The translations under genes were made by a program, and so were the position numbers. From Rutstroemia sp. NJR-2017a BVV2 (taxonomy: Eukaryota > Ascomycota > Leotiomycetes > Helotiales > Rutstroemiaceae), in NCBI GenBank assembly GCA_002946415.1, contig NJPS01000059.1, forward strand, positions 186,001 to 250,000: a DNA stretch of 64,000 bases, given 5' to 3'. Of this stretch, positions 14,090 to 56,076 are shown in pieces. Below the pieces are notes generated by a model. The model was not told the DNA's origin. It made no database searches and saw only the letters and a list, made by a program, of their open reading frames with translations. Numbering within the stretch: position 1 is the first letter of the stretch; each line of letters begins with the position of its first letter.

Positions 14090-16332
14090 ATGCAACAAGC
14101 AGAAGCAGGCCCATCGTCGGCCAGCTATGGTGTTCAAGACGCAGAACCGTCTGCAGGCTTGCAAACCGGGGCAATGGCCCAGAATCGTGTCCCTAAGGAC
14201 TTGATCCTACATCTTGAAAGCGACGAGAGCAAATCTCGTAATCTGGATTACAGAAAAGCGTTCTTGCAATCGGCTCATTCCAAAGGCACACTTCCTTACT
14301 GGAAAATCATCCATGAACCAGAAGAACTAGGAGAGGGGGAAATCCGGGCACTCGGAGAAAAAAATATCCGTGGCCGTAACCCCAGCGCCTTCCTCAATCT
14401 GTCGGTTGTGTCTCTGAGAATGCGACATCTGCAAGTGGAACAGGCCTCCGAGGGGCAAGAGGATGCTCAGATTTTGGTAGCACGGTCGCCTGTCGTCGAT
14501 GATGGTTCTTCTTCTCTTGAAGTACTGGCACCAAGCAAGTCCAATTCGACCGAGGATTCGGGTGGCTCTGCCATCGAACAGCAACCGGATGATCAGATTT
14601 TCTTACCGCCGCCAGCTATCGCTGATGATAGTTTTGCTTCTCCAGCACCGCCAGCACCAAGCAATTACACTTTGATCAGCAATCCGAAAACTACTAAAAA
14701 CAAACCCAGGAATGTACTGCGGGCTCTATCGAGAGTCACAGAAGGACTTCCTGTACTAAATCTAACAGTTTTATTTTGCAAAAAGCTGAGAGGGACGATA
14801 TCGGAATTAGTCGGATCTGCTTCATCTTCGGGGTTGACACCTGGGTAGGTAATTTATCTATGGCAGAGAAATTGGAAGTTTCAGCAGCTAACTGGCGAAG
14901 GGAATGTACCGCTTGCTTGGAGCAGTTCAGTAACGCAAAGCTGGTTAATTTGGCCTGCCACAAATACTGCAAAGTGTGTTTTGCGCAACTAGTCAGGTAG
15001 GTTCATGTCCAAATCATTGATGTCTATCTCAACTGACCGCAAAAAAGTACTTCTCTCGAGTCAGAGGACCGATGGCCTGTGAAATGCTGTACAGAAGTTA
15101 TCCCCTCTCGCGATGTCTTGCGCCACATCAGTAGACAGCAGAAAAAAGGATTTCGTCAACGTGAGATAGAGTGGTCAACAGCAGTAGACAAACGAATATA
15201 CTGTGCAGCTATCAAATGCGGCCGCTTCATACCTCGATCAGCAATCAGGGAAAACAAGACTTGTGTAAGATGCCGCAAGTGTAAAACGGACGTGTGCACA
15301 CAGTGTCTCGCTGCGTGGCATGGAAGAGATGACTGCCCAAACGAGGTTGGCCTCCAGGATGCTCTTGCTCTTGCAGAAAGTCAAGGATGGAAGCGATGTC
15401 CTAAATGCCGGGCAATGGTCTCGAGGAAAGATGGCTGTCGAGTGATCCATTGTCGTTGCGGCTGTCATTTTTGCTATCTGTGCGGTGATTACTGCCTAAG
15501 AAACGGAACGTGCAGTTGTGGTGTCGATGGTAGCGCGGATGCTGTGGCAGCGCAACCTGCACATGTTCAGGCTGAATTGCAAAACAGTGGTGAAGCAAGC
15601 TCTGCTCCTGCAGAACTCAATGCCGCAACGAGCTCGCAAGAAACTCAAGTGGAGGAAGAAATCGAACGCGCCAGAATTGCATTGGAAAACTTGCGCAATC
15701 GCCACGTTTCTGGGAACGTCTTAGCTATTCATCGCAAATATACGGAGGCGACGAGGGAACTCGATGAGATTCACCGAAAACAAAAACAACTCATCCTTGA
15801 GCGCTGGAAGAGACAAGATAAACAATTGAGTGACGATCAACAAGATGCGATGAACAGACTCGAAGCACGTTCGCAAAGATCCATGAAAGTTTTTACTAAG
15901 GACTACGAGTTCCACCTTTCGTATCTTCAACACTTGGATGAAAAATTCTTCGCGATGGAAGAAATGGTAGCCGGAAGCAAGTATGTCTTGGAAGATCTTG
16001 CACGCCGAAAGGAAAAATCCATCTACTCTGAGAAAGACATTGCCAAATCCAAGAAAGAAATACGATTGCAAAAAGTAGGCAAGCTTGGAACCAAAGAGGA
16101 GCAGATTGGGAAGTACACTGCGGAATCCCAAAAGCTAGTCAAAGACTCAAAGCAGGCACGGGACACGACTCGATTGGTTCTTGACTCCATTTTCCAGGAT
16201 TACAGGTGGGGGATGCATACGATCCAGGTGGCAGAGGCAGGGTGGTTGGAGGCGGTGATTGCTGAGAGACAATCAATGTTGCAGGAGATGGAAAGCGATG
16301 AGATTCAGCGTGCAATTAGAAACCACCAGTAG
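14090..16332 (+). CDS. RBR (RING-IBR-RING2) type E3 ubiquitin ligase
   Basis: Best model: exons 14090-14844, 14901-14996 and 15048-16332 (711 residues). Intron 2 (GTAGGT...AAAAG) is firm. Intron 1 is my choice because the GTAGGT donor, a CTAAC branch and the phase all agree; an alternative is a separate gene starting at ATG 14860. RING1 begins ECTACLEQ near residue 253 and runs to WPVKCCTEVIP. The IBR has YCAAIKCGRFIP, CVRCRKCKTDVCTQC and WHGRDDCP. RING2 has WKRCPKCRAMVSRKDGCRVI and the HCRCGCHFCYLCG ending, with the catalytic Cys expected at residue 414. A coiled-coil C-terminus of about 250 residues follows, rich in Glu/Lys/Gln. RBR ligases take ubiquitin from an E2 onto the RING2 cysteine. 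The usual catalytic His two residues after that Cys is Val here. Confidence 0.82.
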
Positions 16333-25334: not shown

Positions 25335-27614
25335 ATGGATCCCCGTCCACAGTTTCCTAACATGCAGGACATTCTCTGTGACGAGTGTTGCTTTTGGCTT
25401 GAGTTCATTCGGGATCCCATGGGAGGAAGCCCAACTCGACCGACCCGGGTACTATTTGACGCTCTCTTGGATGCTGCAAACAAAGGATGTCGGTTCTGTC
25501 TGATTGTGCTGCGCAGACTCATTGAGCTCTACAAGGGTGATATACCATTAGCTCTTCGAAATGACAAATGGAAGTGGCCACCAAAGCTGAAACTAGACTC
25601 GATCGATTGATATTTTTCCTTTCTGCGTTATCCTCTTAGATAAGATTGGGACTCTTTAAATCCATAACTCAAAAAATTTATTCAGATTTCTACACAATAC
25701 GGAATTATAACCCAAGAGGAGGACGGAGAATTTGGGGTGAGGTGAGCGTATATGTCAACATCCCGACAAGATTTGCTCCAGAAAGATCTCCTCCAGATAA
25801 GCTAATGTTAGTCTTAGTAAAGCCTTTTGAAGGTACACTTTGTCCTTGTTTCCAAAAGGTTAGCTAATGCAGACCCTGCAGAAGATATTCCAACGGTTGA
25901 AGACAACACCGGTTCGATGGCCTCCCACCACAAGCTTTCGGCGTAGTACAGCGATTGTTTGGAGAACCACGAAATCTGCCGGAATTTTGCTACTCACCCC
26001 TCTTCAAATCAGTGGTATCCTACACGGCTTTTGGATATTGGTGATAGGGATGGCTCTTTTATAAAATTAGTGATCACGGCTCAATCCAATCTCCAAGGCC
26101 CTTACCTGACTCAGAGTTACCGATGGGGTAACGTTCCGATACTTATTTTGAGATCTGACGCTCTCGGCGACTTTCAAAGAGGAATCTCCCTAGCGGAACT
26201 CCCGAAAACATTCAGAGAGGCCGTTGTTGTCACCAGGAGATTAAAGTGCCGATATTTGTGGATCGATTCACTGTGCATTATTCAAGATTCAAGAACAGAC
26301 TGGGCCACAGAGTCCATGAAAATGAACATGGTATACAGCTCTAGTCAACTGAACCTTTCAGCTACAGCTTCACAAAACAGCAATGGAGGACTTTTCCGGG
26401 CTCGGCGACTGGATGAGGTGTGGCCACTGTTCATTGGTGATGTGCCGTTTCCCAGTGGCAAGACAGGGCGCGTCATTCTGATTGAACATGAATTAATCGA
26501 TGAAGGAATTGAACACATGCCTCTGAATCGCCGCGCGTGGGTACTTCAAGAGCGTCTTCTACCCCCTCGTCTATTGCACTTCGCCCAATACCAGCTTTTT
26601 TGGGAATGCCAACAAGGGATGGCTTGCGAGATGCTTCCGAACGGCATTCCAATCGAGATATTGAAAAATAACTTGACAACTAAAACATTGGTTCCAACGG
26701 TACTTTGGGAACGACGCCGGAAGTTCTTCCGGTCGTGGCACGAACCTGTCTCTTCTGAGCTGCCCTACCTTATGTGGAACCAAGTTGTCGAAAAATATAC
26801 AACGTGCGGAATTACGAAATATGAAGACAAGCTCATTGCCATGAGCGGACTTGCGGAAACATTTTCTCGCATGGTTGATGACACGTACCTTGCAGGCATG
26901 TGGCGCACAGAAATTCCTGTTAATCTCTTGTGGACGGTAAAGGAGTTGAGATAAAGGGACGGATCCCCTTCCTTCCGCCCTCAGGCGTACCGTGCTCCAT
27001 CTTGGTCTCGGGCTTCTGTCGAGGGGTATGTGACACCAACTGAGTATTTGTTCTCAAGATATAAAGATATCATGATTGTCACAATTCACAGCGCAGCAAC
27101 GACCGCGCTGACAGCAATTAACCCTTTTGGGCAGATTACTGGGGGATTCATCGAATTGCAAGGTAGAATTTTGAGACCATTGCAGTCAGTGATGGCGAGA
27201 TTCAAATTCTACGGCATCGTGAGTGAACGGCCACCACTTAGAACTCGGCTCGGGCCCCTCGCCGGACGTGCGGGAAATCGGGAGGTTCTTTTTCACTAAG
27301 TCGAGATTGGAGCACCGCTCATGCCCGAAGAGGATCCACGGGATCCCTTGGGGCTATGTTTGGTCAAGCAAGATACGCCGCAAAGATTTGATGCCGGCCA
27401 GGTTGGCTTTCTTCCTATCGTAGCCCGTATGAATGGTTCCTTAAAGGGGCTTCTTGTTTTATGCAAGGAAGATCGCGGATGCGCTGTTTGTGAACGAATT
27501 GGCCATGCAGTAATCGAAACATCCATCCCGTTGTTCGAATCATCCGAAGCTGGGCATGAGCTAAGAAATAATCTAGGGTGTGATTTAGTAGAAACAGTAT
27601 TTCACTTTGTATGA
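25335..27614 (+). pseudogene. HET-domain (heterokaryon incompatibility) protein, decayed
   Basis: HET proteins trigger incompatibility cell death after fusion of unlike hyphae. The N-terminus (25335-25610) has the usual Cys-rich start (DILCDECCFWLEF, NKGCRFCLIVLRRL). From about 25860 one frame runs to 27614 and carries the HET hallmarks: GPYLTQSYRWGN, CRYLWIDSLCIIQDS, LNRRAWVLQERLLPPRLLHF and QAYRAPSWSRASVEG. That frame is broken by in-frame stops TAG at 25944, TAA at 26952 and TAA at 27297. The stretch 25611-25860 is open only in other frames. The motif normally reading PSWSWASV has Arg for Trp. No sensible introns remove the stops, so I call it a pseudogene. A C-terminal piece (DRGCAVCERIGHAVIE) matches the usual HET protein end. 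Confidence 0.8.
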
Positions 27615-28131: not shown

Positions 28132-29529
28132 CTAACTGAGCGCGGAGCCCTTTGAGTGAAAACACTTGGTCGTCGCCTCAGGGGAGACGAACTGATTGGT
28201 TGGCAAGCTATGAGTTTGCTTTGCCTCGACTATACCGTAACTTTCGATCTTTCCCGATAGCCCTGAGGCCATTGAGTCAAGGTCCGAATCTGACGATTCA
28301 TCGCTTTTAGGCAGATTGAAAGCCCTTATATCCAAATCCGCTCGGAACATATCGACAGCGGAACCAACCTGTTTCAAGTGACTAGGAAGCCACAGATCGT
28401 ACACGTTCTTAACAAACTTGTAGGCTTTCCACCTTTGATCCCCTTCACCGGAAGGTACGAAAACGAACTATGAAATTAGATGCCGATAGAACTTGACATT
28501 TTTTCCATCAATGAAAGTATAATGGCCCCATATCCTTACATTCTTGTCATTGTGAGATATCGAAAAGCTACTGGTTTCCCGATGGAGCTCATTTTCTCGG
28601 CCAACGAGCTTGAAAAGCCAATACAAGCCCCGTAAGGCAACGGACTGAGCATACGCGTTTTTTCGATCGGCCACATCAAGTTCTTCGTCTCCGGAATTTA
28701 CTTCGCAAGTGAGGAATGGGAAATACATCTGGTAAGTGACCGCAAATAGAGAATAATCCGTAAGAAGATCACCAAGAAACGGTTGAAGTTTTTGCAATTG
28801 CTCTGAATTGAAAGCATCCCTGTCGAAACCAAATCCAAAATCTGGCTGCAGTCGAGGTCCGGATCGAGAACTAGATCCAGAACTAGGATTGAGAAAGGCT
28901 TCAGAATTGGTCCAGCACTCATTAGTGATTTCTCTGACGTTTGTGAGATGTTTGGAGCCTCTGTCAGCTAGTAATTCAGCTGACGGAACAATGAATTCCG
29001 ATATTCTGTGAACTATTTTAGACTTATTTTCGCCCTTGATCCTACTGCATATCTTCTTGAACAAGAGATCATCGGAGAAAAGAGTATTTTGAGGCACTTC
29101 CTGCGGGGTTTTTAAGAGCTGCTGACAAAGCTTTCTGCTTTCCGCTGAGATGCCAAGTCCGTGTTCTATCATTGAGCTGCCGGCCTCTTTTAGTTGAAGT
29201 TCGAACATTGGATGCTTGTACGGAGCACATTTCTGATCCCGCGACGTTCTGCTTGTAGTCTGTGTTGTTGATAAAGACGAGTCTGATCGGTTTCAGCTCA
29301 GTGCTCGTTTCCTAGCACGCGCATGATTGATAAGCTCTCGAAAATGATCTATCATTGCCTCTTTATCATCAGTTGGCCAACGTCCATTCTCGCTCCAAAA
29401 TTCAATGCGAGCCTCGTTGATTGTTTTCTTGGTAGGGGCTCCAGGTGTTCGAATTCGTTTGGGTGTGTATCCTGCTGCCTCTGCGTACCGTCCCTTCCGG
29501 TTCACCGCAAGCTTATGTGCACCGGCCAT
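28132..29529 (-). pseudogene. DUF7924-type protein gene with two in-frame stops
   Basis: One uninterrupted minus-strand frame of 466 codons, from ATG 29529 to TAG 28132, contains only two internal stops: TGA at 29295-29293 and TAG at 28470-28468. Across both stops the protein reads through with family character: an N-terminal RWPTDDKEAMIDHFRELINH, then CAPYKHPMFELQL, LFSDDLLFKKICSRI, RLQPDFGFGFDRDAFNSEQL, LQPFLGDLLTDYSLFAVTYQ, YFPFLTCEV, HNDKNVRIWGHYTFIDGKN, and after the second stop AYKFVKNVYDLWLPSHLKQV. I recognise this as the fungal DUF7924 family, of unknown function and often found in variable or repeat-rich regions. The stops are compatible with CGA-to-TGA and CAG-to-TAG changes, i.e. 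C-to-T. A recently dead gene or a readthrough/alternative form are both possible. Confidence 0.8.
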
Positions 29530-40946: not shown

Positions 40947-42158
40947 CTATGGCCGAACCTCCGTGTACTTAGGCGGAGCTGAACTCTTTCCAGAAGGTTC
41001 AGCAGTCATCTTATTCTCCCACTCCCCCTCCGGCGGTGTCAGCATCTTCCAGTCCTCCGTATTCAAATCCTCAAACATCCTCGTCCGCACTGAACTCTCT
41101 CCAGTCTCTACTCCCGGCACAAATGTAACCGGCCTCTCCTTAGTCCACGGAAACCCAAATATTCCATTCATCATCGGCGTATCAACAGTCACCTCCACTT
41201 CCGCAGTGAACGGCCCATGCCGTTCCACAATAATCCCTACCACCAGTTGATCCGGTATCCCCTCTTTGGTGCGTCGGTTCTCTTTCATATCCCAATACAC
41301 TATATCCCACCCAGACTCCTGGTTGCTAGACCAAAAATTCCCGACAAGACTATACCGGTGGTTCTTCTCGAACGTGGACTCGTGACCAACAGAGACTGAA
41401 GGTCCGACAGTCACTGGGCCAGCAGGTACCTGAAGAGAAAATTCTCCATCGACGGTGTGTTTCTTGCCTTCGACAGTGGGACGACCGTACAGTTTCCGCG
41501 GTGCAAACTTCACTACCGATGGACCAGGTTCGTTGGATGATGCCGAAGGATGTGGGGCAAATGCAACTTTTACATTTGCTTGTTTGAATCGAAAACCGTG
41601 ATCCCCGGAACGCAGAGCAAATGTGAGGATGATCAATGATGCGGGACGACCCTTGAACGTGCCGTCGCAAACTGTGGTTACCATACCCCGGACACCAGCA
41701 TGCGAGAGCCAGCCCACATTTTTGTGAGCTACCGTTAATGGAGCTAGTCTGGGAGAGTAGGCGGTAGAAGATCTGTTTGTTGAGTCTTCGGCGGCGGTGG
41801 CTGGGAGAGAGTATACGACTGCCTTGTCATTGATCGGAGGGAAGTGAACAATCGGATATTCATATGATGATTCATTGCTGGTTACTGGAAGAAAACGTGG
41901 GACTGAGCGTTTGTATTTGTCCTTCTCGTTCGTGGCTGGGAGGGAATATGGGACTGAGGACTTGTACGTAGATTGAACGGTGCTTGTTGTTGATGGGGAG
42001 TTCCACGCCGCATGGTTTGAATCCACATCTTCGCTGATGGGCAGGGCTGCAAATTCTTTGAGTTGTAACTCCACAGTTGCGGGGGCATGAAATTTCGCCT
42101 CTCGGGGCCGATAGTTGGCCAAGACGGCCTCAAAATCGGATTGTGTAAAGCTTGTCAT
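40947..42158 (-). CDS. hypothetical protein with predicted beta-rich C-terminal domain
   Basis: A single exon of 403 residues. Residues 1-150 contain loosely repeated segments (SSVPYSLPAT, RSVPRFLPVT, VVYSLPATAA) joined by polar linkers. The C-terminal 250 residues look like a folded, beta-rich domain: ASLIILTFALRSGDHGFRFK, ANVKVAFAPHP, GEFSLQVPAGPVTVGPSVSV, YSLVGNFWSSNQESGWDIVY and EVEVTVDTPM. There is no signal peptide and no membrane segment. I do not recognise the family; similar lineage-specific proteins occur in filamentous ascomycetes. The short frame on the opposite strand at 40774-41250 is antisense and not credible. Confidence 0.6.
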   Translation of the reverse strand: MTSFTQSDFEAVLANYRPREAKFHAPATVELQLKEFAALPISEDVDSNHAAWNSPSTTSTVQSTYKSSVPYSLPATNEKDKYKRSVPRFLPVTSNESSYEYPIVHFPPINDKAVVYSLPATAAEDSTNRSSTAYSPRLAPLTVAHKNVGWLSHAGVRGMVTTVCDGTFKGRPASLIILTFALRSGDHGFRFKQANVKVAFAPHPSASSNEPGPSVVKFAPRKLYGRPTVEGKKHTVDGEFSLQVPAGPVTVGPSVSVGHESTFEKNHRYSLVGNFWSSNQESGWDIVYWDMKENRRTKEGIPDQLVVGIIVERHGPFTAEVEVTVDTPMMNGIFGFPWTKERPVTFVPGVETGESSVRTRMFEDLNTEDWKMLTPPEGEWENKMTAEPSGKSSAPPKYTEVRP

Positions 42159-42766: not shown

Positions 42767-45700
42767 ATGGAAGCTGCTGGCCTAGTACTAGGCGTGCTGG
42801 GTGTAGCTGGATTATTCAGCGCATGCATCGATAATTTTGACATCGTCGTCCGAGCAAGGGACTTCAGTGAAGACTTCGATATTCTCTGTACTCTTGTAGG
42901 ACCTTAATCAATTCATTTGGTGGCACCGTGCTTCCTACTAACAACATCGCTGTAGCTTGTTACTCAACGAGTTCAATTCGCTATCTGGGGAGAACTGGTG
43001 GGACTGGTTCCCGACGCAAATGGTAGGAAATTACCATACAAAAAGGCGATTGATCGTCCTGACATTCGCCCTGCTCTTGAGCGTACCTTGAACAATATTC
43101 GCTTGTTACTTCAAAAGACAGATGTCACCGTTGACAGATATGAAGTCGACTATGGCTCATCACCGAGTACCGAAGTCTCTACGTCGAGAGGTATGGATGT
43201 CTTTAAGGACCAGTGGGACTCCTTCAAAACCCGACTTCGGAAGAACCAGAAGCAGACCTCTGTGACCAAAGTAACCAGGTGGGCTGTGCACGATTCTGCG
43301 CAATTTGAGAAACAAGTATCGAGAATCAAAGAATTAGTTGAAGCACTGTATTCAATCACAGGCTCTCTTGGCCTTCTGGAACAACAACAATCTAGGCTGA
43401 GGCAAGAGATTGAGTCGATTTCTGACGCTCAGAGCCTTCGTCTATTGCGAGATGCGGCATCCATGGATCACCATACGTCTTCCTTGATTCAAGATGTCTC
43501 CGACACTGCAAGTCGCCGCCTAACTTTCGTTACTAAATCTATTACTGGGGGAGGGACTACTACGGACCGAACAGGCGCCAGTACCACATTTTACTCCGCA
43601 CATTCTCAAACTTCCGTTCGCTCCACTGCGTCAATGATAGATGAAGAATTACACAGCGAGTATGATGGTGGCAGGGTCGAGGAACATGCTAATTCAGTCA
43701 ACAAGGTTACTGTTCAAGAAAATGCGCCAGCCACTCCGCCCGTTGACTTACCACAAAATCAGAGGTTGCTTGCAGAAATCTTGAAGAAAGCCGACAAGCA
43801 CAAACCCCTCAGCTTTGCCTCTGGTGACAGCCGCTATGGACAACAACTAGCAGCGTACAAGAAATCCGATGAAGAATTCTGCTTAAGAAACTCGGCCCGA
43901 ATGATTGCGTATGCATCTACCGGAACGTCTGCGGCGAAACGCATGTTTTTCGAGCTTAGACGGATACGGGAAGCAGGAGTACCGTTTGTCAGCGCCGCGC
44001 CTATCGGCGATAATCTAAGCAGAATTCTAGCAAGCATTGAAGGGCCACCGGAGACCCCGTATGAAGGCGGCATCTTCTGGATCACCGTTAGTGTCTCCGA
44101 GGAGAACCCATCGAAACCTCCACTCTTACGGTTTCATACACGAGTGTACCACCCGAATGTGGATCACAAGGGAAACATATGTGCCGATTATCAAGAACGT
44201 TGGAACGCCTTCCCGAAGAGCCGATATGTGAAGGGCGCGTATAAAGATCCTAATTCTCAGTGGTTCCAAGAAAAGTCGACTGGAATATGGTCGCTAGGTG
44301 CTCTGCTAACTGCACTTTGTGCGCTCCTGGCGACCCCGGACGTCGACGACCCTCTAGTTCCAGAGATTGCGCAGGCGTATCTGGAGAACTATGATAACTA
44401 TTGTGCTGCCGCCAAGCTATATACACAACGTTACGCCACGCAGAGCAAGCCCGATGAGAGTAGCTTAATGTTCTCCAATGCACCAGAAGAAACTCCTTCC
44501 GAGCATTCCGAAGAAGAATTGGAACCTGACGAAAGTCTGGAGGAAAAGTTGCGACAGTTAGAGTACAACGACGAAGCTAATACTATTGAAAGTTTGAGCT
44601 CTTCAGAGACGATGAAAGGATTGGAGTCATGGCTTACGAAGTATCGCGAGCGAAAGACGAACGGAAAAGTTCTTCGGGATTATAAAAGAAAAGAACCGAC
44701 TCATTCCTACGGGATATCTTCCAACGTTGACTCTTATACTCCTGATGTTTACAAGTATACTGTGTATTCTGATCTGCCAAATGGGTATGAAAAGGGATAC
44801 AGTGATAGGCACTACTACTACTCGCCGTCAGCTGGATCCTACTATTTGGGCGTAGATAGATGCAATCCAGACGGTAGTTATAGCTATATCTCCAAGTCCA
44901 TACATGAACCAGTAACGAAAAGTTTTTCGAAGGTTAGTAACCTGGCTGGGTATGGATATCCTCCTTCCAATGAACCAGCACGAAAAAATTCTTCGAAAAT
45001 TGGCTACACGAATGATGAACGCCGCGCCAAGCGACCCAGGGCAAAAAGGCCTGCCTCAAATTCAAACTTCAAGCCCAAGCCTAGTAGGAAATCCCGCGAA
45101 GCAACGGAGCTAGACGCCCGCGCCAATTATATTCCTCCTGGATACTCGCTGAAGCATTGGGATCCTGCAGAGGAACCTATATTGGTACTCGGTAGTGTTT
45201 TTGATGCCGACTCTCTCGGAAGCTGGATTTATGACTGGACCGTGTACCAATATGGCCCTTCAACGCCTATTTCAGATATGGCTGGTGAATTATGGTTATT
45301 ACTTATTCAGATTTCTGTGAAATCAAAGCGATTGGACGAAACTATACCCAAGATGGAAACCTCTGATGACAGAGACATGATTGAGGATTTTTCCGAATCT
45401 GCCGAACGGTTGATGAAGAAGCTCAAAACGTTATTGGGAGCAGCCGAGGTGAATGCTCTATGGGAGTATAAAGCAGCTAAGGCCCTAACTTCTTCGAGGC
45501 TCCGAAACACAAATCAACAAGGAGATGGGCTGAGAGGCCAGACAGAAATACCCAACCTGGACAGACGATCACCAACTGCAGAGTCAGATACCGGAAAGTT
45601 TCCATCTGCTCAAATTAGAAGTAGAGATCGCGCGCTTCCCATAAAACGAATTGAGAAGATCCCGCGGAGCCAAATGGGTAACCCAGAAAAGCAAAAAGAT

Positions 45701-46723
45701 CGTGTCCTCGCAACAGAAATAATCAAATCACTCTTTGGAATCGAGCATCTGTTGTTAAAGACTGAGAATCTTATGACCAGGCTACGGCTCTGGAACTTGC
45801 GATTCGATGCCAATTGTGAAGAAATCATACGAAGAGTCTCAACATCAGCCACTATCAAACGTCACTCCCAGAACGAGGAGCGACTGCCAGAGTTAAAATA
45901 CCCGTCTGTAGCCAAGCAAATAAAGAATTCTGATGGCCTGTCCCTAGAAGAAAATTGGGAGGAGGAAGTCCCTGCTACGGTAACAGATAAACCTCAATCT
46001 GATGAAGAGTCGGAAGAGTCAATGTCAAACGCAGAAAGTAAAGCAAGCATCAATTCTAACATCAAAATATCTGCAATGAGTCGAAGTCCTGGAAATAAAG
46101 ATGAACGACAAAAAGGAACTTATCAGGGATCGGACCCGACTAGTCAAAATCAAGTTTCTGCGGCAAAGCCAGAAGAAACTACCGCAACTGCAGACACGCA
46201 AAGGAAGTCCGAAAGCTGGGGCACTTCTTGGAATTCTGGGGGTGTTTCCTGGGACACCTATGTCAAGAAGGAGGGAGAGACGAAAAAAGCCGAAGCAGAC
46301 GGCAAAGGGAAGATGATAGATGATGGCAGGGATTCCTTCATGCCTACCAAGATGGAGAAGAAGAAATACGAGCATGATTTGGAACGGTTATGGTCGAATC
46401 CGATAACTGAAGAGACAAACGAGATCACCACAGAGAATAAGCCCAAGCCAGAAACAACCCCTCGAGCGGAATTTGAACCGAAAAATCCATCTCAAGCGAT
46501 ACGAATACGGGCCACGGCTCCAGAACCCCCAACAATCTCTCCAGAGCGAGAGCACGCCATTACCACTGCACCGCAAGATTCAATATCAAAGAGTGATCAG
46601 ACTCGCAACTTAACCAGACGCATACCGCGGACAGAGGCGCTACGCCTGGTCGATTCGACTATGGAGTATTTGGGCAAAATGCATCTGGAATCGCTACCTG
46701 AGATGACCGAAGAAGAAGATTGA
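42767..46723 (+). CDS. HeLo-domain protein with internal E2 ubiquitin-conjugating (UBC) domain
   Basis: Exons 42767-42895 and 42956-46723, with a 60-nt intron (GTAGGA, ACTAAC branch, TGTAG), give 1298 residues. HeLo domain, residues 1 to about 220: hydrophobic first helix MEAAGLVLGVLGVAGLFSAC, then DFSEDFDILCTLLVTQRVQF, AIWGELVGL and TKVTRWAVHDSAQFEKQVSR. HeLo domains are membrane-targeting cell-death domains (HET-S type). E2 domain, residues about 379-540: RIREAGVPFVSAAPIGDN, SILASIEGPPETPYEGGIFW-like strands, His442-Pro443-Asn444, catalytic Cys452 at the canonical spacing, and PDVDDPLVPEIAQAYLENY. About 28 extra residues separate Cys452 from the WSLGALL helix. A third block (770-1000; PPGYSLKHWDPAEEPILVLG to RLWNLRFDANCEEI) also looks conserved. 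The tail is charged and disordered. No amyloid motif or NLR was seen. Confidence 0.85.
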
Positions 46724-52740: not shown

Positions 52741-55700
52741 TTATTTGATTATAAAGTCTTGAATTTCTATATTCCCAAGCTCTTGCATCAGCGCTCCCTG
52801 CATGATTCCATGGACATCTATCTAGAGGTCAGTGAATTGGCTCAATAAGAAAATAGCTTCGGGGACTTCGTTGTAAACTTACAGCATTCTCCGAGGATGC
52901 GATACTCGTCTGTACCTTCAACCTTCCTCATGACATGCGGAACTTTTGCCCCTAGAAATATCACTACAGGATCCCCTTTCGCAGTTGTGATTGGTCCTCT
53001 GCCGATGTATCCACGTTTGGTGATGAAGAAACGACTGATGTATGTAGTAGTTTTAAAGGCGTTCAACACTTGGACCCGACCCTCATCGTCTGGAAGCACC
53101 ACAGGGTCTATTTCATCGTCTAGAGGTGTTGCTTGATATCTCAGATCTTTAGGATCGCCGCCATTGCCATCACTGGTGTCATCATCGTCATCGATTTCCT
53201 CGGCCTCTTTATCTTCCAATCCATATATATCGTAGCTAATAGGCTGGCCTAGGGAAATCGTTTGATTGAACGCGTTCTTAAGGTCCGTGAGATCTTTCCC
53301 GTAGAGATTTCTGGAACGTCGAGATGCTGAACAGAGCCTCCATTCCTGTACATGTCTAAAACTCCACTCTTCACTCGCAGTACATTCTATTTCGTCAACA
53401 ATCGCACCTCGAACCATTAGAAGCATTTCTTCGTCTAGCAATCTGAAGACTGGCCTAGTATTCCCTGCAGCTTTGAATCGTTTACGCCGAGAAGTTTCCT
53501 CGGCTAAGAGGACAGACCGTGCCATCCTGCTATCAACTGGCTTTATTGACCAGTTTGGGAGCCAGGACGGCCAAGTGGTTTGGTCACGAATTTTCCCCTG
53601 GAGTTATCAGTTAAATTGAATGAATGTTGTTCTACTTTCTCAATCCTTAGGCACTTACAATTGGGTCCGTATGGTAATGATTGCGCACTTCACAAGCAGT
53701 CAGAACATCAATGTTCCCTTCCGTATCAAGAATGTGTTGGAAGATATCACGACTGATGTAGAATAGATCTCTGTCATAGTCAGGCTTTCCGAGAGAAGCA
53801 CCGGTGCTAATGATGCCTAGTACACCGAAGACATAATCCTGTTTCATCGTCGCGGAACGCTCGCGGCTCAGGAGCATTCCGGCCAGAGGAGACGGCATTC
53901 GGCCGCTTTGTATTTCCCATCGAAGCGTAAGAAAACGCTCCAGGGGTGAATCGTCATTATATTCTCCATAGTTGTATGACTCTTGTGGGATAGTCCGCTT
54001 CCATTCTCGTAAAAAGAGGAAGAGGAGGGTTTGGAAGTAAACGACGTAACCTCCGTGACACAAAAGCATGTTGCGACCTAGTAAAGCTTCCTGCATGGTC
54101 CAGACCCGAGTCCAATAGCTGCGAGTGAATAATTCCTTGTAAGAGTGGAGGTTCATCCAACCGCGCGAGAGTTCTTGAAATTTCTTGAGGACGGGTTGCT
54201 CCTTGTCATTGCTTCCGACTTCATACAAGGGAGAGAACAAGAACATCTCGAACGTTGACAGATTATCCATAACGAAGGATGTAGGGTCCTCCATACCCAC
54301 CAGGTCGTACCTTGGCGGCATAGTCTCTTTGTCATCTACCCATATCAAGACACATCCAGCCCTATTATATATGGGACCCATCATCCCAACTTGGTGATTC
54401 TTTTCGGAAGCATTGCTCTGATCAATGCACAGTGCGTCTACCCAGAGCAGTGCCGGGACGCTTGGATCACGTAATTCTTTCAGTGCCTCGAAAAGACTAG
54501 GGCCAACATTCCTCCTCTTTCCGCCTAAGAAAATACTCCTCGGTGGGTTGGGGTTACCCCAAACATAAGACAGGGCCATGTAAGGATAACTCTCGACTCC
54601 TTGCTTTTGCCAGTAATCGAGGTCCAAAACAAAGACGTCGCAATAGATATCTGCCGAAGGATCTCTGCTTGGGTGGAGCAACAAGACTCGGATTTGCTGA
54701 CAATTTGGCTTCAGTGGTTCATACACGTAGGTTGCACTTTCACCCTCCGCGGAATCTGCCGCTTCCTGATCACTTGTCGTTGTTTTTTGGTTTGAACGAG
54801 CAGCTTTGAGAATGGCCTGTGATCGCTCGTACTTATGGAAGGCACCCGCTGCAATAAGTACGCCAAGCCAAGCATCCAAAGCCCTGTCGGAGTCGCTGAG
54901 CCCGCCAAAGAGCTGAGCGCTGTCGGAGAGGTCAGCGCTGGGGAGGCCATTTGAATCAGAGCTTGGGCTACTGCTCGATTTTTTTGCTGCTGCATGGTGA
55001 CGCTCTTTGCTATCACGCTTCATTTTCCAAAAACATCTGTTCTTGTATCGATTGCACAACCGGACGCTAAGGCCGGTGAGCACACGTCCCGCTTTTGACG
55101 CTTCTGATTTGTTTGTCAACCAATAAAGCACATCTTGTGGGTGCGCGAACATGGGGCCGTAGCCCCAAGTGATCTCATCCTGTTGGTGACTAGTTCTGTC
55201 CCCTTCAAATTCCTCGTAGAAAACCTCTCGAAAACTCTCAGGTATCTTGCCCGGAATTTGGAGCAATATCTGATCAAACCAGACGGGATAGTCATAGCGA
55301 AGCCTCGGGAGTGTAAACCTTAGCGTGTAGACAAAGGTCGAAAAGATATCCCAGCTCATGCCATATCTACCGCACCGAAACGATGCCTTCGCAGGGATGC
55401 CAAGCTGGATAATAGCCTCGATGCGTTCCCAATGCCACCAAGAGAGGTTGAAGAGAGGCTGGCTGCTAGATAAAGCATTCTCAATATAGGGAATGCGAAG
55501 TTTTTTTTCCAACTGCTCTGACTTCTCGACGGACGTTCTGGGCCGCGCGAGCGTTGGAAGTAACGCCACGGCCGAGAACGCAACTCGGGAGAGTGGGGTA
55601 TCTTCTCCCAGCCATATGATCATCTCTCTTGCGGCAATGTGGATGTCGGCATTATCTTTAATCACAACCCTGGGATCACTGGGATATGGTTCTCCGAGAC

Positions 55701-56076
55701 AAAGGGATTGTACCCACAAATATCGACCTTCGCTGGGGAGGCGTAAATGACGAAGGGCTGATTCCAGGATTACTGTAACCAGGACGTCCTTCCCATCGAG
55801 TTGGATCAATTTCGAGGGTGTAATGTCAATATCTAGGTAGGAGATTGCATCAAAGGGCGGCGGGTTTTGACCGTTGGAAGATATTGAGAGTAGATCACAG
55901 GTGATCTGGGAGTCTTGCTCCTCGGAAGAGTGTAGCAAAACTAGCCGAATATCCTTTGAAGTTGTCAATCCAAAATCTGAGGCTCATCTTTACCATGAGG
56001 TATAACCGAAGACGGAATATGAGGGAGGGGAAGTAGTGGGATGATTAGAATTATTTGCAACCTTCAAGTCCGCCAT
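52741..56076 (-). CDS. protein with two HET domains
   Basis: Main exons: up to 55968-53659, 53597-52883 and 52817-52741, joined by introns with GTAAGT donors. The ORF at 55968 opens without an ATG, so a short first exon starting at ATG 56076 (MADLKVANNSN) is likely; its splice is unresolved. The first HET-like part (IRLVLLHSSEEQDSQITCDL, FDAISYLDIDITP, YLWVQSLCLGEPY) is degenerate. The second, from about residue 424 of the open frame, is canonical: IRVLLLHPSRDPSADIYCDV, YPYMALSYVWGNPNPPRSIF, ALLWVDALCIDQSNASEKNH and SYWTRVWTMQEALLG. The C-terminal part ends RILGECYVHGIMQGAL, typical of HET proteins. HET proteins drive incompatibility-type cell death. The protein exceeds 1030 residues, long for the family. 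It looks intact apart from the start. Confidence 0.82.

Follow-up and report, generated by a model that had tools for sequence, protein, structure and literature searches.

How might a fungal killing domain be controlled when it shares its polypeptide with a ubiquitin-conjugating (E2) enzyme? The question is raised by one gene in a 64,000-nucleotide stretch of DNA from Rutstroemia sp. NJR-2017a BVV2 (C55:186001-250000, C55 being contig NJPS01000059.1; hereafter, the window), part of a 43.4-Mb genome in 79 contigs. Pore formers of the HeLo/MLKL kind are switched by amyloids, NOD-like receptors (NLRs) or kinases. The gene, here called HeLo-UBC after its first two domains, encodes 1298 amino acids: an N-terminal HeLo domain, an E2 (UBC) domain, and a third block related to a separate fungal protein family. 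Because many relatives have the first two parts in common and their third parts differ, the gene appears to belong to a family of ubiquitin-linked cell-death switches that has gone unstudied. A conserved protein with its own E2 would place ubiquitin control inside the executor itself, and the governance of HeLo/MLKL killing by ubiquitin would become testable in one polypeptide.

A HeLo domain and an E2 in one conserved protein

The same layout is present in annotated proteins of two other fungi, P0001 (85% identity to the window protein over 86%) and P0002 (60% over 100%). Two protein searches (78 and 95 hits) were merged and P0078, which has the Pfam labels UBC and U-box but is another protein, was excluded, giving 141 database proteins or, with the window protein, 142 rows; the family may be larger, because each search scored only ~8,000 candidates sharing most words. 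HeLo-UBC proteins beyond the window, whose existence the initial annotation had left to a search, are thus at hand: Pfam finds both domains in 126 of the 141 database proteins (127 of the 142 rows), and profiles built from the family find both in 132 of 142, a partly circular count. A credible HeLo domain is missing in nine rows, eight of them from jgi, lgn or ena sources and one from ncbi; the eight are possibly incomplete gene models.

The HeLo domain proposed in the initial annotation is recovered clearly. PF14479 scores 147.9 bits against a gathering cut-off of 23.2, and in a sequence search the HET-s HeLo crystal chain (PDB 2wvo) was matched over residues 5-211 at E 1.3e-16. Of the 76 family rows whose N-terminus is complete, 73 begin with a transmembrane (TM)-like segment with a Kyte-Doolittle hydropathy over 19 residues (KD19) of at least 1.6; elsewhere in the HeLo domain, 1 of 76 has one. 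Passages of PMC3531502 describe how a hidden N-terminal segment of HET-S goes into the membrane, and argue that an extreme N-terminal position is necessary for HeLo membrane insertion. The AlphaFold2 model of P0001 is moderately confident in the HeLo region (block predicted local distance difference test, pLDDT, roughly 35-90), and no HeLo chain stood among the best 50 Foldseek matches listed for it.

The E2 fold, placed at residues 379-540 in the initial annotation, is supported as well. UQ_con scores 87.1 bits in the exon-2 open reading frame (ORF) and 91.9 in the cut-out domain (cut-off 27), and a PDB sequence search returned 302 distinct sequences at E <=0.01, the best at 2.3e-30; the best 60 of the 302 are E2s or E2 fusions, UBE2D-class chains first. 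In the P0001 model the E2 core has a block pLDDT of 88-96 except in the loop-7 stretch, and its best 50 Foldseek matches listed are UBE2D/UBE2E/Ubc4-like chains, with TMt 0.84-0.93 (three RNF168-UbcH5c fusion chains among the matches listed reach only 0.32-0.33). His442-Pro443-Asn444 and Cys452 lie exactly where they had been read from the sequence, at canonical spacing, and the Cys is not lost in the relatives that cover it. Among the 138 rows covering the active site (P0049, P0252 and P0256, of the 141 rows with UBC, are without this segment), Cys, His and Pro are each kept in 138 and Asn in 137, P0238 having Thr. Asp stands at the Asp117-equivalent position in 133 of 135 rows and at the Asp87-equivalent in 123 of 138, both being Asp in the window protein (UBE2D numbering).

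What sets this E2 apart are the surfaces used by ubiquitin ligases (E3s). In loop 7, at the place of the Ser-Pro-Ala of UBE2D, 131 of 133 rows have 21-31 residues, one of the remaining rows having 12 and the other 16; the window protein has ~25 extra residues, and the insertion at 462-485 has a pLDDT below 50 in the P0001 model. At the loop-4 Phe62 position, Phe or Tyr is found in 32 of the 82 rows with a letter there, a further 59 rows having a gap and the window protein a Ser. Loops 4 and 7 of the family are therefore not the canonical UBE2D-type E3-contact loops, from which we infer that ordinary RING or HECT ligases would not dock on it in the usual way. With its RING/HECT contact loops remodelled, the E2 probably either dispenses with an E3 or relies on one devoted to it. 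The backside Ser22 position, in turn, is Ser in 136 of 141 rows; this residue has a role in chain building by E2s.

The E2 is also the most conserved part of the protein. Between the window and Clarireedia jacksonii, 231 of 240 E2 positions are identical (96%), compared with 194 of 213 for HeLo; between the window and P0001, the counts are 232 of 241 for E2, 201 of 213 for HeLo and 112 of 125 for the third block. A stand-alone 234-aa E2 in the same genome (L010:1393-2097, - strand) is the top tblastn match to the window E2 among the own-genome E2 loci compared. It has an ASIEGPP.(T/S)PY.GGIFW stretch in common with the window E2 and is without the loop-7 insertion; it is a possible relative of the E2 donor.

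Looked-up members come from Rutstroemia, Lasiosphaeris hirsuta and Cladophialophora psammophila; the named members are presumably Leotiomycetes, Sordariomycetes and one Eurotiomycete, those beyond the looked-up ones being placed by name. Apiospora arundinis has four entries (P0216, P0219, P0221 and P0231), mutually 64-82% identical and on contigs of 3.41-3.47 Mb, which may be paralogues or else strongly diverged alleles at a single locus, the latter being what an incompatibility gene would be expected to show. Kinases appear at the edges of the family: P0045 combines HeLo, UBC and a kinase, and P0260 (Immersiella caudata) has a HeLo domain close to the family's followed by a full protein kinase, without UBC. 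The Rutstroemia genome itself holds other HeLo genes (L001:448-2052, L002:1498-3378, L003:1189-3288 and L007:679-2148). Three of the four pair HeLo with DUF7580 above the cut-off, L007 falling below it; L003 and L007 have weak, sub-threshold kinase matches, a layout resembling the HeLo plus pseudokinase of MLKL-like proteins.

Among the papers listed in full-text searches of open-licence literature, none describes a HeLo-UBC fusion in its title or the start of its abstract. Among reviews and surveys, "UBC" has 0 mentions in PMC9815663, PMC4986451, PMC12881547 and PMC12258605, and "ubiquitin" has 2, 0, 0 and 1 (the last in a reference), respectively. Since both Pfam labels stand together on many database entries, the architecture is recorded, though apparently not studied.

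The third block is a captured gp1

The initial annotation had pointed to a third conserved-looking block at 770-1000. The block is real, its residues 756-882 and 954-1003 matching a fungal family labelled "vegetative cell wall protein gp1" in databases; by homology, it is a captured copy of that protein. Going beyond what had been noticed from the DNA, the block proves on comparison to be captured, fast-evolving and different among family members. The gp1 family comprises 642 proteins at E <=0.001, and most of the 120 listed are ~400 aa long, without HeLo or UBC. A stand-alone gp1 is kept in the Rutstroemia genome (G000:C15:205073-206260; one open frame, 396 aa) and is 94% identical to the stand-alone gp1 of C. 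jacksonii. The conserved part of gp1 is mainly helical in a model of the C. jacksonii protein, and the P0001 model predicts the fold of the fused copy with confidence, block pLDDT being mostly 86-96. An earlier candidate reading, in which the block was a new domain belonging to the HeLo-UBC gene, was rejected on account of its gp1 membership, and a Diphtheria_C match to it (E 0.045, below the cut-off) was treated as chance.

The two gp1 copies have fared differently. Between the window and C. jacksonii, the fused copy is identical at 84 of 127 positions (66%) and the stand-alone copy at 123 of 127 (97%; Fisher p 8e-11), such that in Rutstroemiaceae the fused gp1, judged on its amino acids, diverges fast and the host domains and the parent gp1 do not. 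Near-invariant positions, conserved in at least 95% of 115 listed stand-alone proteins, are kept at 69 of 89 in the window, 66 of 89 in P0001, 70 of 89 in P0002 and 44 of 67 in P0003; stand-alone proteins keep 90-100%, the sites having been defined on those very proteins. An integrated decoy would be expected to show just this: a conserved cellular protein present twice, once on its own and once as a fused copy that evolves faster. If so, the fused, fast-changing block marks gp1, which is conserved in ascomycetes, as a likely target of attack or object of guarding, and would offer a handle on the attacker.

Within the HeLo-UBC family gp1 is clear in 9 rows and weak in P0046 (22 bits). The gp1 tree is suggestive of several independent captures, with 4-7 changes across bootstrap trees, the "fused" label there including P0079, P0104 and P0172, in whose listing HeLo-UBC does not appear. 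Approximately unbiased (AU) tests rejected neither a tree holding the fused rows together (p 0.30), nor one joining the window clade to P0017 (p 0.51), nor one joining it to its own and the C. jacksonii stand-alone gp1 (p 0.47). P0017 itself has a gp1 almost like the stand-alone protein (64 of 67 near-invariant sites) and unlike its sisters P0053 and P0056; either the capture is recent or the gene model is mis-joined.

Third parts differ across the family

Do other members carry gp1 as well? Mostly not: the third part, as judged from the sequences, differs between members. At least 150 residues follow the UBC domain in 85 of the 141 rows, and by BLAST 61 of these long tails fall into 10 clusters, the other 24 being singletons. 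Pfam was re-run on ten rows picked for extra domains in the database listing: C-terminal ankyrin repeats were found in 3, and TPR, kinase, SAM, DnaJ, PPIP5K2_N and DUF7896 in one each, the tenth row having a WW domain placed before the E2. P0237 carries a fungal zinc finger. In P0021 (Oculimacula yallundae) HeLo-UBC is followed by PPIP5K2_N, part of an inositol kinase, which may be another decoy-like capture or come from mis-joining in the gene model.

A FastTree core tree was built from the 108 of 142 rows with enough of both domains, places where long branches meet being flagged. Six tail labels, of which two (short and other) are catch-alls, change 26 times on this tree, versus a shuffled mean of 54.6; the tails are therefore partly inherited. 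On starred branches, ankyrin changes 3 times and gp1 2 times, and one starred clade holds two TPR and two ankyrin rows.

A proposed mechanism and its rivals

What could such a protein do? The fusion is real and conserved and its E2 active site is intact, and a ubiquitin-coupled cell-death effector is therefore the most natural reading; this part of the initial annotation's proposal stands, and its bacterial parallel is taken up below. More specifically, HeLo-UBC proteins may be cell-death receptors, with HeLo as the executor, an exchangeable, decoy-like sensor at the other end, an E2 between them and ubiquitin as a brake, a proposal that we hold tentatively, as possible though short of probable. 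The HeLo domain, of the HET-S/MLKL kind, would perforate membranes once released and clustered. The UBC4/UBE2D-type E2 would be charged by the cell's ordinary ubiquitin-activating enzyme (E1) and put ubiquitin on its own protein or on whatever the third part holds. Sensing would fall to the variable C-terminal part, here a fast-diverging gp1 copy acting as bait or decoy for something whose usual target or binding partner is the real gp1. At rest, ubiquitin conjugation would keep HeLo silent or short-lived; once the bait is engaged, conjugation would be stopped or redirected, and HeLo would kill the compartment. Catalysis, killing and sensing are all conjectural steps here, as is the sign of the ubiquitin effect, where a brake is favoured over a trigger because of two precedents: passages of PMC8816944 describe how, in mammals, K63 chains on the HeLo domain of MLKL divert it from the cell membrane to endosomes, and in passages of PMC11153139 conjugation by bacterial Cap2 is proposed to keep the cyclase of a CBASS (cyclic-oligonucleotide-based antiphage signalling) system inactive.

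A number of points weigh against this proposal. The direction of the brake rests on analogy. Fewer than 150 residues follow the UBC domain in 56 of the 141 rows, some of them partial models, and in many members a folded sensor would therefore hardly fit; among the 85 long tails, 12 have a Pfam domain (by database listing, re-checked in part), 9 have gp1 and 64 are unrecognised. The fast change of the fused gp1 may reflect relaxed constraint rather than an arms race, which would give the same amino-acid picture, and between the fused and the own stand-alone gp1 the Nei-Gojobori (NG86) nonsynonymous divergence, dN, is 0.28 with an undefined, probably saturated synonymous divergence, dS. For gp1 itself, no relative was found in the PDB by sequence, none of 280 Foldseek matches reached E <=0.001, and no function was found, including no paper among the literature matches listed. 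A genome search found HeLo and UBC matches coinciding at one place only, making this a single such gene. Finally, NACHT, NB-ARC and NPHP3_N have 49, 14 and 107 matches, respectively, in the genome and none within the window, the nearest NLR-type P-loop on the contig starting at C55:321744, about 89 kb past the HeLo-UBC gene; no NLR link therefore supports an immune role.

Would a protein built in this way need to kill at all? HeLo might do no more than tether the protein to membranes or help it oligomerise, and the E2 thus recruited to the membrane, as a hybrid of the E2/E3 kind, would ubiquitinate a C-terminally bound substrate without any death. We regard this as unlikely on the whole, though it would suit an E2 that is the most conserved part (231 of 240), the remodelled E3-contact loops and the typical protein-binding modules (ankyrin, TPR, SAM, DnaJ) among the C-terminal parts; a full HeLo fold, with its TM-like helix kept at the extreme N-terminus in 73 of 76 rows, is more than a simple tether needs. 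The E2 could instead be the decoy, mimicking UBC4/5 such that an invader attacking the ubiquitin system, for example a mycovirus or a competitor, trips HeLo. The likeness to UBE2D/Ubc4, a very general E2, would fit, strict conservation of the active site suits mimicry as well, and integrated decoys are proposed for fungal NLRs in passages of PMC12258605. However, loops so strongly unlike those of Ubc4 make for poor mimicry, and no part of the protein evolves more slowly than the E2, in contrast to the fast-changing C-terminal block, which leaves an E2 decoy decidedly improbable.

The E2 may also work with the opposite sign, sensing leading it to build chains on itself or its neighbours that cluster HeLo into pores, in place of oligomerisation by amyloids or NLRs. 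HET-S oligomerises in the membrane while killing, according to passages of PMC3531502, the E2 has the place, after HeLo and before the variable part, that the nucleotide-binding domain takes in the HeLo NLRs described in passages of PMC12881547, and the conserved backside Ser would be in keeping with chain building. Ubiquitin as a trigger nevertheless seems quite unlikely to us, the mammalian precedent being one in which ubiquitin steers MLKL off its killing site (PMC8816944, in the passages cited above). Adjoining HeLo, E2 and gp1 genes wrongly joined by chance or annotation would fit the non-consensus donor of the inferred intron, and mis-joining may also have produced some database models, P0017 and P0021 for instance. 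However, a frame of 1255 codons runs without a break from most of HeLo to gp1, other genomes have the same layout, and the two Pfam domains occur together in 127 of 142 rows, making an artefact very hard to credit.

Gene model and surroundings

The gene model (Table 1) has a single intron whose splice sites are predicted from the sequence, with a branch-like CTAAC. The splice join was selected among six in-frame options because it keeps the HeLo domain whole, and the resulting protein can be aligned across 213 positions to those of two relatives, with 201 and 194 identities.

Table 1. Features of the HeLo-UBC gene (window coordinates; position 1 is the first letter of the window)
Feature	Position	Strand	Remarks
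Exon 1 (start codon and N-terminal TM-like helix of HeLo)	42767..42895	+	KD19 hydropathy 2.23, residues 3-21
Intron, inferred, 60 bp (GTAGGA...CTGTAG)	42896..42955	+	one of six in-frame joins
Exon 2, open to the stop codon at 46721-46723	42956..46723	+	open frame of 1255 codons
HeLo domain, residues 5-207, spans the intron	42779..43447	+	PF14479 E 4.5e-43
E2 ubiquitin-conjugating domain, about residues 376-531	43952..44419	+	PF00179 E 1.1e-24 in exon-2 ORF; PDB UBE2D/Ubc-2
HPN motif His442-Pro443-Asn444	44150..44158	+	
Active-site Cys452 (predicted)	44180..44182	+	Cys in 138/138 covering rows
Loop-7 insertion, residues 460-487	44204..44287	+	at UBE2D Ser-Pro-Ala E3-contact loop
Captured gp1 block, first part, residues 756-882	45092..45472	+	gp1 hidden Markov model (HMM) 185.8 bits
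Captured gp1 block, second part, residues 954-1003	45686..45835	+	gp1 HMM 42.1 bits

Around the gene, NLR-type domains were found in none of the 19 ORFs scanned with Pfam among the 33 other window ORFs of at least 150 aa. Two HET-domain ORFs, at 25959-26954 and 53647-55968, are separated from the gene by ~16 kb and ~7 kb, respectively. A divergent ORF of 403 aa (40947-42158, - strand), with its start ~600 bp from that of HeLo-UBC, matched nothing in Pfam and nothing convincingly in the PDB; it could be a partner gene. Further upstream, an ORF with two IBR matches (15079-16332; 26 kb away) is a candidate RBR-type E3 ligase, and a DUF7924 ORF (E 3.2e-65) occupies 28468-29208 on the - strand. Elsewhere in the assembly, identical matches at mirrored or equal positions on contigs C25/C74, C8/C37 and C50/C74 suggest redundant contigs.

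Comparison with known systems

HET-S of Podospora anserina resembles the window protein in its HeLo domain (by Pfam and PDB 2wvo), in the N-terminal position of that domain and in the TM-like helix. It differs in what follows: HET-S ends in an amyloid prion domain and takes its signal from an NLR encoded next to it, whereas the window protein continues with an E2 and a variable third part, with no NLR-type P-loop in the window. Fungal HeLo NLRs have in common with the HeLo-UBC family an N-terminal executor and a central domain and, with part of its rows, a variable C-terminus, which in some has ankyrin or TPR repeats; passages of PMC12881547 and PMC12258605 describe this succession of executor, middle and variable end for fungal NLRs, and decoy-like extra domains are proposed for Sordariales NLRs in the latter. 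The centre, however, is NACHT or NB-ARC in those receptors and an E2 enzyme here, Pfam finding HeLo and UQ_con only, and no NACHT or NB-ARC, in the window protein, and neither of these two being present in the Pfam listings of its homologues. That HeLo-UBC proteins form a class of fungal immune or allorecognition receptors parallel to NLRs, in which an E2 replaces the nucleotide switch between a HeLo executor and an exchangeable sensor (here a gp1 decoy), seems to us a doubtful if arguable extension.

As an enzyme, the E2 has its fold, HPN motif, Cys and gateway Asp in common with UBC4/UBE2D E2s, which provide its best PDB matches; unlike them, it has a long loop-7 insertion, has mostly lost the loop-4 Phe and is fused to HeLo. 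BIRC6 and UBE2O are large E2/E3 hybrids with a UBC domain that need no separate E3, and BIRC6 controls cell death. Set apart here by description only, these hybrids have no HeLo and restrain death, whereas HeLo-UBC proteins carry a putative executor. Cap2, the conjugating component of type II CBASS, is an E1-E2 fusion. Its proposed role of holding an immune enzyme inactive, with the cyclase as its target (passages of PMC11153139), is the nearest bacterial counterpart, yet the parallel to bacterial defence operons with E2 domains, as worded in the initial annotation, holds as a functional analogy only: 0 PADLOC families match the exon-2 protein, an NCBIfam search gave no match, and the E2 is closest to eukaryotic UBE2D, UBE2E and Ubc4. 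MLKL of mammals is likewise a HeLo/four-helix-bundle (4HB) pore former, for which control by ubiquitin chains is known and for HeLo-UBC proposed. There, the ligase ITCH acts in trans (passages of PMC8816944) on a protein with a pseudokinase, whereas HeLo-UBC proteins carry the E2 in the same chain as the executor.

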